From positions 62,001 to 126,000 of the forward strand of contig JAVEYB010000006.1 in the NCBI GenBank assembly GCA_034003725.1: a DNA stretch of 64,000 nucleotides, written 5' to 3'. The notes below the pieces were generated by a model that was not told the origin of the DNA, made no database searches, and saw only the letters and a list, made by a program, of their open reading frames with translations. Position numbers and translations under genes: made by a program. Each line of letters begins with the position of its first letter. Within the stretch, counting starts at the first letter, position 1. Below, piece after piece: positions 1,101-26,768 of the stretch. This DNA comes from Candidatus Zixiibacteriota bacterium. GTDB taxonomy: Bacteria; Zixibacteria; MSB-5A5; GN15; FEB-12.

Positions 1101-2732
1101 CTATACCACACCCGACGCGTGCTGTTCCTTCAAAAGCAGTTTGTTCACTTTGCCGGATTGCAGTTTTGGCAGGCTGTCGACAAAGACCACGAAACGGGGG
1201 ATCTTGTGAACGGCCAGCGTTTTCTGGCAGTGCGTCTGGATATCTTTTTCGCTGAGCGTACCGCCGTTTTTCGTGACAATGACGGCCTTAATCGCTTCGC
1301 CGAGGATGTTGTCGGGAACGCCGAAGACGGCAACCTCGGCGACCCTTTCGTGCTCCAGAATGCGCTCCTCGACTTCCTTGGCGCTCACCCGGTTGCCGCC
1401 CGATTTGATAATCTCCCGGCGTCGGCCGGTGATGAAGTAATAGCCGTCCTCGTCTTTGCGTGCCAAATCACCGGTATACAGCTTGCCGCCCTTGAGTACC
1501 TGGGCTGTCTCCTCGGGCTGTTTGAAATATCCCATCATCACGTTGGGGCCGCTGACGACCAGTTCGCCGGTCTGGTTGACCGGGACCGGCATGCCTGACT
1601 CGTCGAGAATCTCCACGGTGACGCCGGGCACTTCGACACCGATCGATCCAAGTTTGTCAACCAGGCGCTCGGGCGGAAGCCAGGTCACGCGTGGAGCGGC
1701 CTCGGTCTGGCCGTACATGATGAAAATCTCCTTGTGACCGAAGGCGTCGATAAGCTGACGGATCACCTCGGGCGCCATGGCGCCGCCTGCCTGTGTGAAA
1801 TAGCGAAGGTGCTCGAGTTTTCGCTTCACGAAGGATGAGCCGTTGAGCAGGATCATGAAATGCGAGGGGACCCCGGAGAATCCGGTGGCCTGATGCTCCT
1901 CCATCGCATCTAGTACGACTTCGGGATACATGAAGCGGTTGTCGATAATCAGCGACCCGCCGCACGCCACGTGGGTCAGCAGCAACGAATTGCCGTAGAT
2001 ATAGTAGAACGGCAGGATGACCATGACAGAGTCCCGCTCCGTCAGCCGGAGGTACTCCACGGTGGCGAGCGTATTGGACACGAGATTGCCATGCGAGAGC
2101 ATCACGCCCTTGGACACGCCGGTGCTGCCCGACGTGTAGAAAATCGCGGCAAGGTCGTGGCGACCGCTCTCGGCGAACGCCGACTCGTCCGGCGCATCGG
2201 GCAGAGGAATCGTATCGGCGCTTGCGATAATGTCGCCGATCGTTTCGCCGGGAATCCAGTCGATCACGCCGGAAAGCGGCTTGTCGGAGAAAAGATGTCG
2301 CACCGACTCGTTGCCCTCGACGATTTTAGCCAGATGCCTCCGAAAGCGCCCCTGTACGAACAGGACGACAGCCTCGGAGTCCTTGATGATGTCGTTGAGT
2401 TTGTCGGGGGCCAGCGACGTATCAAGCGGAACCGCGACATGACCGGCCTGAAAAACGGCGAAAAACGAAATCAGGTACTCGATCGAGTTCTCGAACAAAA
2501 GCGCAATGTGGCTGCGCTCGGGCAGGCCCAGGGAACGAATCCGCTCGGACAGTGCACAGGATCGCTGCCACCACTGGCCGAACGTGAGGCGCTCGCCCGA
2601 GGCGATCGCCGCCGTGTGCCCGGGACGGGCAGCGGCGGCCCGTGTTAACAGGTCGGCGACGTTCATGTGTTTCGTCGTGGGAACCGGCGGCTTTTCAGAC
2701 CCGCTCATACTCTCACTGTGTGAAGCGACCAT
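1101..2732 (-). CDS. AMP-dependent acyl-CoA/acyl-ACP ligase
   Basis: ANL-superfamily adenylating enzyme of 543 residues, about the usual length. Visible motifs are the AMP-binding loop YTSGSTGVSKG near residues 199-209, YGQTEAAPR near 350, LYTGDLARKDEDGYY near 420, the hinge with GGNRVSAKEVE, and a C-terminal PKLQSGKVNK containing the likely catalytic lysine. It probably activates a carboxylic acid as an acyl-AMP and loads it onto CoA or the acyl carrier protein encoded immediately upstream. The first ATG is used, but internal ATGs at 2708 and 2666 are possible starts. Related ligases accompany ACP and AsnB in exopolysaccharide (exosortase-type) loci. The substrate cannot be read from sequence. 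Confidence 0.9.
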   Translation of the reverse strand: MVASHSESMSGSEKPPVPTTKHMNVADLLTRAAAARPGHTAAIASGERLTFGQWWQRSCALSERIRSLGLPERSHIALLFENSIEYLISFFAVFQAGHVAVPLDTSLAPDKLNDIIKDSEAVVLFVQGRFRRHLAKIVEGNESVRHLFSDKPLSGVIDWIPGETIGDIIASADTIPLPDAPDESAFAESGRHDLAAIFYTSGSTGVSKGVMLSHGNLVSNTLATVEYLRLTERDSVMVILPFYYIYGNSLLLTHVACGGSLIIDNRFMYPEVVLDAMEEHQATGFSGVPSHFMILLNGSSFVKRKLEHLRYFTQAGGAMAPEVIRQLIDAFGHKEIFIMYGQTEAAPRVTWLPPERLVDKLGSIGVEVPGVTVEILDESGMPVPVNQTGELVVSGPNVMMGYFKQPEETAQVLKGGKLYTGDLARKDEDGYYFITGRRREIIKSGGNRVSAKEVEERILEHERVAEVAVFGVPDNILGEAIKAVIVTKNGGTLSEKDIQTHCQKTLAVHKIPRFVVFVDSLPKLQSGKVNKLLLKEQHASGVV

Positions 2733-23484: not shown

Positions 23485-23709
23485 GTGGTCACGCGTTGTG
23501 TGTGTTTCAACCAGTCCTTCGTTGATCTGCGGAAGATCGCACGAAAAACAAAGGCTCGGACCATTGGCGAGTTGCAGCAACACGTCACCTTCGGCCGCAA
23601 CTGCTGTCGGTGCCACCCGTACGTCATCAAGATGCTGGTCACCGGTGAGACGGTCTTCGCGGTGATGGATGAGGACGAGGCTGCCCGGTGGCTTGCCCAG
23701 GGGTCGTAA
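23485..23709 (+). CDS. BFD-like [2Fe-2S]-binding protein
   Basis: A protein of 74 residues with the cysteine pattern of bacterioferritin-associated ferredoxin-type domains: CVC at residues 5-7 and a distal NCCRCHPY near residue 40. Such domains bind a [2Fe-2S] cluster and pass electrons, as in iron release from bacterioferritin. The GTG at 23485 is used; AAGGTAGG lies upstream. No bacterioferritin gene is nearby; dps lies 7 kb away. Confidence 0.8.
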   Translation: MVTRCVCFNQSFVDLRKIARKTKARTIGELQQHVTFGRNCCRCHPYVIKMLVTGETVFAVMDEDEAARWLAQGS

Positions 23710-23814: not shown

Positions 23815-24396
23815 TCACTTCTGCTCGCCGCTCGAATCACTCTCCGTCGAACTCTTGAACTTCAGCGCAGCGGAGTTCACACAATAGCGCAGTCCGGTCG
23901 GCTTGGGACCGTCCTCGAATACATGCCCGAGGTGTCCTCCGCAGCGGCTGCACAAAATCTCCGTGCGATTCATCCCGTACGAGGAATCTGACTGGGTATC
24001 AATGGCGGCGCTGCCGGCGGCGTCGAAAAACGCCGGCCAGCCGCATCCCGAATTGTACTTGGTCTCCGAGGTAAACAACACGGCGCCGCATCCGGCGCAC
24101 GTGTAGACGCCATCTTCGAAAAACTCATCGAACACGCCGGAAAACGCGCGCTCCGTCCCCTTCTCCCGCAGGATACGGAACTGCTCGGCGGTCAACCGGG
24201 CTCGCCACTCAGCGTCGCTCTTGATTACTTTCTCACTCATAGTTGTGTCTCCCTGCCCGGCGCCGGGCCGGGCCGCCGCACGCTCCGCCGTGCCCTCGCC
24301 TGATAAAGGCGGGGTCAACAAGAGGCCACACGTCGCGACGGCGAGAATCAACGGCCGTACAACGCGAAGGTCCGTGATGTACTTTTGAACGTCCAT
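23815..24396 (-). CDS. msrB: Peptide-methionine (R)-S-oxide reductase
   Basis: A protein of 193 residues. A short N-terminal hydrophobic segment (about 13-32) suggests export or membrane anchoring, then a complete MsrB domain with two zinc CxxC pairs (CAGC and CSRC), GWPAFFD and the catalytic cysteine in RYCVNSAAL. It reduces methionine-R-sulfoxide in proteins; the leader implies envelope repair. The SGCGWP cysteine could be resolving. Confidence 0.93.
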
Positions 24397-24517
24397 AGTT
24401 ATGCGTCCGGCTGAGCTCGGTGCATCCTTTCAACCATCGATACGCATTCGGGGTTCCACTGACCGACTCGCGTCATACTCACGCCGTTCTTGCCGTTGTG
24501 GCATGGTCCAAGAAAAA

Positions 24518-24544
24518 ACGGCGGGACTTGTTAAGTCCCGCCGT
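24518..24544 (-). terminator. Strong terminator downstream of the 44-codon gene
   Basis: Perfect 12-bp stem ACGGCGGGACTT with its complement and a GTT loop. On the minus strand it runs into TTTTTTC, so it ends transcription arriving from the small gene at 24616-24750. Confidence 0.9.
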
Positions 24545-24615
24545 CACAGACTGAATGCTGTAGGTGTCTTTCCGTCCAGCCGGGGGCGAGGCCGGAGCCG
24601 GTGTCGGTTGTTCAG

Positions 24616-24750
24616 TCAAGTCGGGGAATCGCGAAAGTTGTACTCACTGATGTCCAGTTTCCCGACGGAGAACCCGCGAGAGATGCCGACGGAATCCGTG
24701 GCGGCATCTCGACGCCGCGCAGGCGCGGTGTCCGGTAGCAAGGGCGGCAT
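24616..24750 (-). CDS. Small protein of 44 residues, unrecognised
   Basis: An ATG at 24750 lies six bases after a consensus GGAGG, and the frame stays open for 44 codons to TGA at 24616. The product begins MPPLLPDTAPARRRDA and ends KLDISEYNFRDSPT. It has no hydrophobic segment or cysteine; the N-terminus is Arg/Pro-rich and the C-terminus acidic/aromatic. A TATAAT at 24793-24788, an upstream dyad at 24817-24839 and a strong terminator at 24518-24544 define a separate transcript of about 265 bases. It directly follows a PAS-LuxR regulator gene on the same strand. It could be a signalling peptide, regulator or RiPP-like precursor; no function can be assigned. Confidence 0.6.
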   Translation of the reverse strand: MPPLLPDTAPARRRDAATDSVGISRGFSVGKLDISEYNFRDSPT

Positions 24751-24787
24751 TGCGGGCCTCCGCTAAGAACATCGACCAACTCAGGCA

Positions 24788-24839
24788 ATTATACAAGAGA
24801 CGACCGTGATACACGTATGGGATACTATAGCTATCCCAT
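24788..24839 (-). promoter_or_regulatory. Candidate activator-dependent promoter of the 44-codon gene
   Basis: On the minus strand a perfect -10 TATAAT occupies 24793-24788. The -35 position reads ACGTGT, a poor match. Abutting it is an inverted repeat, ATGGGATA and TATCCCAT around a 7-base spacer (24817-24839), centred near -47 of the predicted start. This is a usual place for a LuxR/NarL-type activator. Confidence 0.6.
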
Positions 24840-24899
24840 CGTATCGGTCGTAGTCGCTTATCAAAACGTATTATATTGCGCAACAGCAACTTACGGATT

Positions 24900-26213
24900 C
24901 TACTCGGACCCTGAAGTGGTCGCTTCTCCTTCGGAAAGCTGCTGCAGATACAGACGAAGGTTGATCTCTTCGTTGTCTATTCCGAGCTTCCGCCTGATGC
25001 TCTTTCGTTGATTGCGCACGGTTCCTTCGGAGGTATGCAGGGCGGCGGCGATGTCCTTTGAGGACAACCCGTTCTTGATCATATGGCAGATTTCAAGCTC
25101 TCGGGGAGAAAGCGATGCGGACAATCCTCTGAGTCGCTGCAGGAAAGGGGAGGTCAATTCTTGAAGGGACTGCCGGATGGTAGCGACTAGATTCAGGTCG
25201 GACGGCTCCAGACGGCGTTCCAGATCGGCCAGTAAGGGTAGCACCATACGATCGACATTGGCGCGAATGTGCTCAGCGATTCCCCGGCGCTCACTGTCGA
25301 TCTGGTCGAGCACCTCACGAAGAGCGGTGTTCTTGCGCCGCAGCGCTTCCTGATCTTCTTCCAGCGCTCGATTGGCGTCGGCCAAAGCCTGCTCGGTCTT
25401 CTTTCGGTTGGTAATGTCCTGTATGATCCCGAACAAGCGGACTATTCTTCCCGCCTCATCCCGTGCCACCTTAATCAAAGCGGCGTGATACGCAGTGCGG
25501 CCCGACGGCAGATTGACGCGAAGGTCGAGCTGGCACTCGCGTCCGTGCTCGGTCGCTTCCCGCAGACTGCGGCGCAGCAGGGCCGCGTCTTCCGGATGAT
25601 GACAGGCGATATGCTGTTCCAACGATGGCGCGCCGAGTTCCGGTCGCCGCTCGAACAGGTGAAAGACCTCGTCGGACCACGTCATGACACCGGTGGCCAG
25701 GAGCAGTTCCCAGTGACCGATTTTGCCGAGTACCTGCGCCGCCTTCAGACGCGTTTCACTGTCTTTCAGGGCCTGTTCGTATCTTTTGCGGAGGGTGATG
25801 TCGCGCGATACGCAAATGATCTCCCCCGACTCCCCGCTGCTGTTGTCGCACACCACCGTGGAGTTCGTCTCGTACCAGATGTAGGTGCCGTCCTTCCGAC
25901 GGATTCGATACTGCACCGTGTACACGGTCGGCCGCGTAAGTATCGTATCGTGGCTCGTCCGGACGTTTTTGATGTCTTCGGGATGAATGTAACTGTACGG
26001 GTCCGTGCCGACCATTTCCTCGGGCTCATACCCGAGCAGTTGTCGGCAGGCCGGCGAGACATACAGGTACGACCCATCGGGAGCGTGGTGCGACATCATA
26101 TCAATCGCCTGCTCGGCCATCAGGCGAAAACGCATCTCCCCTTCACGACGGCGATACTCCTCAGCCGATCGAGGACTGCGATCCCCTCCCGGTTTCCGGT
26201 GCTCGTGATCCAT
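24900..26213 (-). CDS. PAS-PAS-LuxR transcriptional regulator
   Basis: A protein of 437 residues: PAS domain at about 30-145 (SYLYVSPACRQLLGYEPEEMVG, then a PAC region), a second PAS at about 155-270, a coiled coil at about 275-320 and a C-terminal LuxR/NarL helix-turn-helix (LSPRELEICHMIKNGLSSKD, TVRNQRKSIRRKLG) at about 365-425. There is no kinase or receiver domain, so it likely senses a small molecule or redox state directly. A sigma-70 promoter precedes it at 26302-26330. The dyad just beyond its stop codon suggests that it controls the small downstream gene. Confidence 0.9.
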   Translation of the reverse strand: MDHEHRKPGGDRSPRSAEEYRRREGEMRFRLMAEQAIDMMSHHAPDGSYLYVSPACRQLLGYEPEEMVGTDPYSYIHPEDIKNVRTSHDTILTRPTVYTVQYRIRRKDGTYIWYETNSTVVCDNSSGESGEIICVSRDITLRKRYEQALKDSETRLKAAQVLGKIGHWELLLATGVMTWSDEVFHLFERRPELGAPSLEQHIACHHPEDAALLRRSLREATEHGRECQLDLRVNLPSGRTAYHAALIKVARDEAGRIVRLFGIIQDITNRKKTEQALADANRALEEDQEALRRKNTALREVLDQIDSERRGIAEHIRANVDRMVLPLLADLERRLEPSDLNLVATIRQSLQELTSPFLQRLRGLSASLSPRELEICHMIKNGLSSKDIAAALHTSEGTVRNQRKSIRRKLGIDNEEINLRLYLQQLSEGEATTSGSE

Positions 26214-26301
26214 GTCGTGGCTCTCTTTCGGCTACACTTGCCTTGCCGAAGATGGGGTGCGATACCGGTCGTTCGCGGCAACCCGCGTCCACCCGCAAGT
26301 A

Positions 26302-26330
26302 ACTATAGTCCACAAGCCCGGCGAGGTCAA
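26302..26330 (-). promoter_or_regulatory. Sigma-70 promoter for PAS-LuxR gene
   Basis: Minus strand TTGACC (26330-26325), 17-base spacer, TATAGT (26307-26302); about 80 bases of leader to the start at 26213. Confidence 0.7.
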
Positions 26331-26354: not shown

Positions 26355-26768
26355 TCAGAACACCAACCGGACGCCGAACTGATTGATCGACTCCGGTTCG
26401 AATGTCGAAATGACGCGCTGATAGTTCACGCTGACAAACGATGTCACCGGCTTGACAAACGATAGTTCCACGTAGTGGTCTTCATCGAGACCCGGTGTCA
26501 GGTCGTAGTTGTAATCGGCCGTGAATTCGATAGTGAACGAAGTCAGCACCTTGAACGAGTTTATGAGAACCAGCTGCAGCGTGTGACCCCGGTTGGCGCC
26601 GCTGTCATCGACGTTTGCGTAGACGGACAATTCGTTCGAGATCGGCTGGAAGCCAAACCGTTTCGAGCTGTCTTCCCAGGATGGAATGAGGCCGGACTGC
26701 GCCGACGCAGACCTTACGAAGAAGAGACTCAGTGCCGACATGCAGACGAGCAGAACAAGCTTGCGCAT
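26355..26768 (-). CDS. Exported hypothetical protein, probable outer-membrane strand-rich domain
   Basis: A protein of 137 residues with a clear signal peptide (about 1-23, ending SASA-Q). Alternating hydrophobic strands (TLQLVLINSF, SFTIEFTADYNYDL, HYVELSFVKPV, SVNYQRVI) lead to a C-terminal phenylalanine (GVRLVF) of the kind that marks outer-membrane barrel proteins. It is too short for a full large barrel. Family not recognised. A GGAGG-like site lies just before the ATG. Confidence 0.7.
   Translation of the reverse strand: MRKLVLLVCMSALSLFFVRSASAQSGLIPSWEDSSKRFGFQPISNELSVYANVDDSGANRGHTLQLVLINSFKVLTSFTIEFTADYNYDLTPGLDEDHYVELSFVKPVTSFVSVNYQRVISTFEPESINQFGVRLVF

Follow-up and report, generated by a model that had tools for sequence, protein, structure and literature searches.

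The window, that is the whole stretch of 64,000 nucleotides that was analysed, carries on its minus strand a gene for a PAS-PAS-LuxR(GerE) regulator of 437 amino acids (24900..26213), in which two stretches of PAS_3 and a GerE domain scored above the Pfam cut-off. It is followed by an intergenic unit and then by msrB (23815..24396, minus strand), recognized by its Pfam SelR domain and by synteny, which encodes a methionine sulfoxide reductase B whose N-terminus carries a membrane/signal segment. For the regulator gene, a consensus scan, which is expected to yield about 0.7 chance sites in this region, suggested a sigma-70-like promoter, TTGACC-17-TATAGT (26302..26330, minus strand). The window and both contigs of the related genome G002 have, upstream of the regulator gene, a gene for a protein of 137 aa (26355-26768, minus strand in the window) whose start resembles a signal peptide and which belongs to no Pfam family. 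Convergent to msrB, a small BFD-like [2Fe-2S] protein is encoded at 23485-23709 on the plus strand (Fer2_BFD 25.5 bits, cut-off 26), and a similar convergent sequence also follows msrB in loci L005 and L007. The preliminary description had listed a 44-codon ORF, a GGAGG site, a TATAAT box, a dyad and a terminator behind the PAS-LuxR gene, and all of these elements are present in the sequence of the minus strand.

The comparison within the genus covered the window genome (G000), G001 and G002, which represent three lineages and four copies of the locus. The gene order PAS-LuxR, intergenic unit, msrB is common to the three genomes. G002 contributes two copies (L006 and L007), one per contig of a single bin. 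Since they are 91-95% alike in the RNA region and share their neighbours, they were taken as probable strain variants within one bin, and the effective comparison is therefore one of three lineages.

Conservation among the four copies is unevenly distributed. The stretch between the luxR stop and the promoter region has 15% invariant positions, the 5' half of the RNA, which is poorly conserved, 25%, its 3' core 40%, the terminator 52% and the stretch between terminator and msrB 22%. The highest value, 71% (22 of 31 positions), was found for the block TATCCCATACGTGTATCACGGTCGTCTCTTG (24794..24824, minus strand), a putative promoter/activator element. When the motif CCCANNCGTNTNNCANNGTCGTCNCTTG was searched with up to three mismatches allowed, each locus copy in G000, G001 and G002 yielded a single hit, and the rest of these genomes none. 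In addition, CTTG and the downstream GTCGA hold their spacing in all four copies, as read from the sequences. The unit had been described as having its own promoter region behind the PAS-LuxR gene; this stands as far as the block, conserved and unique to each locus, is concerned, but TATAAT, the -10-like box at 24788..24793 (minus strand) in the window copy, is not kept as such in the alignment and reads CAAAAT or CGAAGT in the relatives.

Overlapping with the block is the 8+8 dyad ATGGGATA-N7-TATCCCAT (24817..24839), which is beyond chance and to which the adjacent LuxR regulator may bind. A search of the three genus genomes with up to 2 mismatches gave exact matches to ATGGNATA-N7-TANCCCAT at this locus only, namely in the window copy and the two copies of G002; a second exact site was not found. 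The dyad reported upstream of the unit is thus upheld for these three copies, but in the alignment G001 retains only its promoter-proximal half. A wider dyad regulon was discarded, the sole other site with 1 mismatch in G000 falling inside a long coding frame. From this arrangement it appears likely that the unit is an independent RNA with its own promoter.

The unit ends in an intrinsic terminator (24517..24545, minus strand) with a stem of 13 pairs, a loop of 3 nt and a T-run. It is strong, as had been described, and 11 of 11 pairs are kept in the four copies. As the luxR stop and the RNA were found to have no other terminator between them, luxR transcripts probably end at 24517 as well, and the terminator probably serves both luxR read-through and the small RNA. 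This would also be the case if the whole unit were no more than the structured 3' UTR of luxR, with a terminator belonging to this gene and no separate RNA function. Against this speak the block and the dyad, which are placed after the luxR stop and ahead of the RNA at a fixed spacing to the downstream GTCGA. Such a fixed-spacing block fits a DNA control element, and conservation is lacking in the stretch that separates it from the luxR stop. A mere 3' UTR is accordingly regarded as improbable.

The candidate small RNA extends over 24511..24784 on the minus strand, with a predicted 5' end and a 3' end set at the terminator, and has syntenic homologues in G001 and in the two G002 copies. Both its overall fold and the terminator are beyond chance. 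The fold of the window copy has a z of -3.85, and 0 of 200 shuffles were equally stable. In the core domain, the single-sequence folds of the four copies gave z values of -4.7, -2.7, -5.1 and -5.5. The consensus structure is paired in 98.9% of the pair cells of the four-copy alignment, against 23-52% for slid control structures. Double-sided changes were found at 5 pairs (7 cells), and the covariation score was matched by 0 of 500 shuffles; with only three lineages, few independent changes underlie this covariation.

The 3' domain (24549..24617, minus strand) consists of a long-range helix, in which 24611-24617 pairs with 24549-24555, around a C-rich hairpin (24577..24594, minus strand). All 7 pairs of this outer helix (GACTG/CAGTC) are kept in the four copies, two of them being changed on both sides: the arms read GACTGAA/TTCAGTC in the window and GACTGTC/GACAGTC in G002. 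The hairpin exposes the loop UCGCCCCC (24582-24589), a proposed pairing site, which according to folding is unpaired with a probability of 0.91-1.00 in the window copy. The sequence GCCCCC(C)GGC is kept in all four copies, and in each of them at least three C residues of the loop are unpaired at 0.97-1.00.

The preliminary description had read the unit as the gene of a 44-residue peptide. Within the window this reading looks attractive, as the ORF (24616..24750, minus strand) runs for 44 codons from the ATG at 24750 to a stop ending at 24616, is preceded at a spacing of 6 nt by GGAGG (24757-24761, minus strand) and is part of a complete unit. Frames of this kind are common by chance. In composition-matched first-order random sequences of 499 nt, read on a single strand, 58% of the trials gave a frame of 44 or more codons beginning with ATG, and 5.6% gave one together with a GGAG/GAGG-like site. 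The ORF is not beyond chance, and in the RNA fold of the window copy the GGAGG falls within a predicted helix. In the alignment, none of the other same-genus copies has the ATG: G001 reads ACG at this position and G002 reads GTC, and the frame of the relatives is disrupted by gaps of 7, 1, 10 and 2 nt. Loss of the frame in relatives had itself been named beforehand as the outcome that would point to a small RNA. The peptide belongs to no Pfam family, and the homologue search, also proposed there, returned an E value below 0.2 for the window itself only among 80 genomes of the order, i.e. no significant match.

The peptide gene was rejected, since neither start codon nor reading frame is kept in the relatives, and it is now considered highly unlikely. 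The ORF is judged to be a chance frame inside the RNA. A small RNA is favoured over a peptide because the relatives keep the promoter site and the RNA folds and lose the frame, and the unit is very probably non-coding. The case illustrates how a small ORF that looks convincing and has a good ribosome site can arise by accident within a structured RNA.

The conserved structure could alternatively act in cis, as a leader of msrB in which the terminator attenuates transcription coming from the conserved promoter and read-through into the gene depends on a signal. This would agree with the position of msrB, which in G000, G001 and G002 is the next gene downstream and has the same orientation, with a terminator about 120 nt ahead of its start, and with the conservation of the structure upstream of the terminator. 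However, a separate promoter-like site of msrB, GGAACC-N16-GGTTGAA (24429..24457, minus strand), lies between the terminator and the msrB start. It is conserved in the four-copy alignment as GGAACC-N15/16-(C/G)GTTGAA, the relatives showing the N15/16 spacing and the CGTTGAA variant. We take it to resemble promoters of ECF sigma factors, and such a site suggests that the methionine sulfoxide reductase may be under stress-sigma control. Moreover, thermodynamic folding, on which this point is based, paired the 5' arm of the terminator with different sites among the copies and gave no antiterminator common to the four. Rfam returned 0 matches at the gathering score over the whole window, riboswitches included. 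A simple msrB leader is disfavoured because of the gene's own conserved ECF-like promoter and the lack of a shared antiterminator, and the probability left to it is low.

The small RNA and the regulator share their distribution. Full-length regulator orthologues were detected in 3 of 54 genomes of the family, all within the genus. The same three genomes gave about 100-124 bits with a covariance model of the RNA, and at most 33 bits were obtained in the 129 further genomes of the phylum that were searched. In the eight weak matches that were aligned, nearly all of the match corresponds to a GC-rich terminator (GGCGGGA type) that is frequent in this group; for this reason the weak matches (up to 33 bits), essentially terminators among those inspected, were not counted as homologues. 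At L072 of G006, a genome of the same family, a terminator (1501-1594, minus strand) follows a 7-bp GAUUGUC/GACAAUC helix that resembles the outer helix described above. This element has no C-rich hairpin and is possibly another small RNA. The shared distribution of regulator and RNA fits a functional pair but does not prove it.

Taken together, the sequence suggests, with moderate confidence, that the main function of this locus is to encode a small RNA transcribed from a promoter of its own. Most likely this is a genus-restricted small RNA of an ordinary kind. A non-coding RNA of about 270 nt would be transcribed from its own promoter and end at the terminator 24517-24545. The PAS-LuxR regulator encoded directly upstream probably binds the conserved block and the dyad; for control of the small RNA by this regulator, the chances seem evenly balanced. 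The conserved 3' domain would display the C-rich hairpin loop, and as its most likely action this loop would base-pair, independently of Hfq, with G-rich stretches near the sites where translation of target mRNAs starts. Hfq (PF17209) was undetected in the three genus genomes, and five control genomes were positive.

A trans-acting pairing RNA is favoured because of the predicted single-stranded C-rich loop and the precedents of sX13 and RepG. By analogy with these, action through pairing of the loop is conceivable, its probability falling somewhat short of even. A G-rich start region was found in 2 of 53 genes, counting the genes of the window only, and no target emerged. In all copies, CCGGG in codons 7-9 of luxR could pair with the loop; the match is a palindromic core of 5 bp and reaches 7 bp in G001 only. 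In a target ranking of the 53 window genes by duplex energy luxR came third. This rank was not taken as evidence, since energies of long duplexes do not separate the genes and the ranking is uninformative. The complete arrangement, a genus-specific two-gene module in which a PAS-LuxR sensor acts on one dedicated small RNA with a unique promoter and a C-rich loop, beside msrB, is offered as a tentative and rather doubtful proposal. What is new here is a probable genus-restricted small RNA, together with a corrected view of the supposed peptide gene. For uncultured phyla such as GN15/Zixibacteria, small RNAs have hardly been described.

The neighbourhood of the RNA recalls GacA-dependent RNAs of the RsmZ/CsrB type. 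The adjoining gene encodes a LuxR-type regulator, and CsrA is encoded in G000 and G002, so an RNA that sequesters CsrA/RsmA under a LuxR-type regulator, like GacA-RsmZ, was considered. The CsrB/RsmZ class is defined by repeated ANGGA loop motifs. In contrast, the candidate RNA has no repeated loop motifs of this kind. Each RNA contains 1-2 ANGGA motifs, compared with 0.6 expected, and 4-8 GGA, compared with 3.7-3.8 expected. This reading was rejected on account of the low motif counts, and such a function seems very improbable.

A closer parallel is offered by Hfq-independent small RNAs with C-rich loops, of which sX13 and RepG are examples and which form a functional class, not a homology family. 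sX13 of Xanthomonas is a non-coding RNA of 115 nt with three C-rich loops, and acts independently of Hfq; pairing with G-rich motifs close to translation starts has been proposed for it (PMC3771888). The candidate RNA likewise has a C-rich apical loop. It differs from sX13 in its length of about 270 nt, its unrelated sequence and its single conserved C-rich loop, no further conserved C-rich loops being found in the four copies. RepG of Helicobacter pylori is encoded beside an orphan regulator gene and pairs with G-runs in an mRNA leader through a C/U-rich loop (PMC8295292). The candidate RNA resembles it as a C-rich-loop RNA adjoining a regulator gene. In RepG the C/U-rich loop is that of the terminator, whereas here the loop belongs to a separate hairpin upstream of the terminator. 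If the proposed mechanism is true, the locus would represent an independent case of C-rich-loop regulation in bacteria in which Hfq is undetected.
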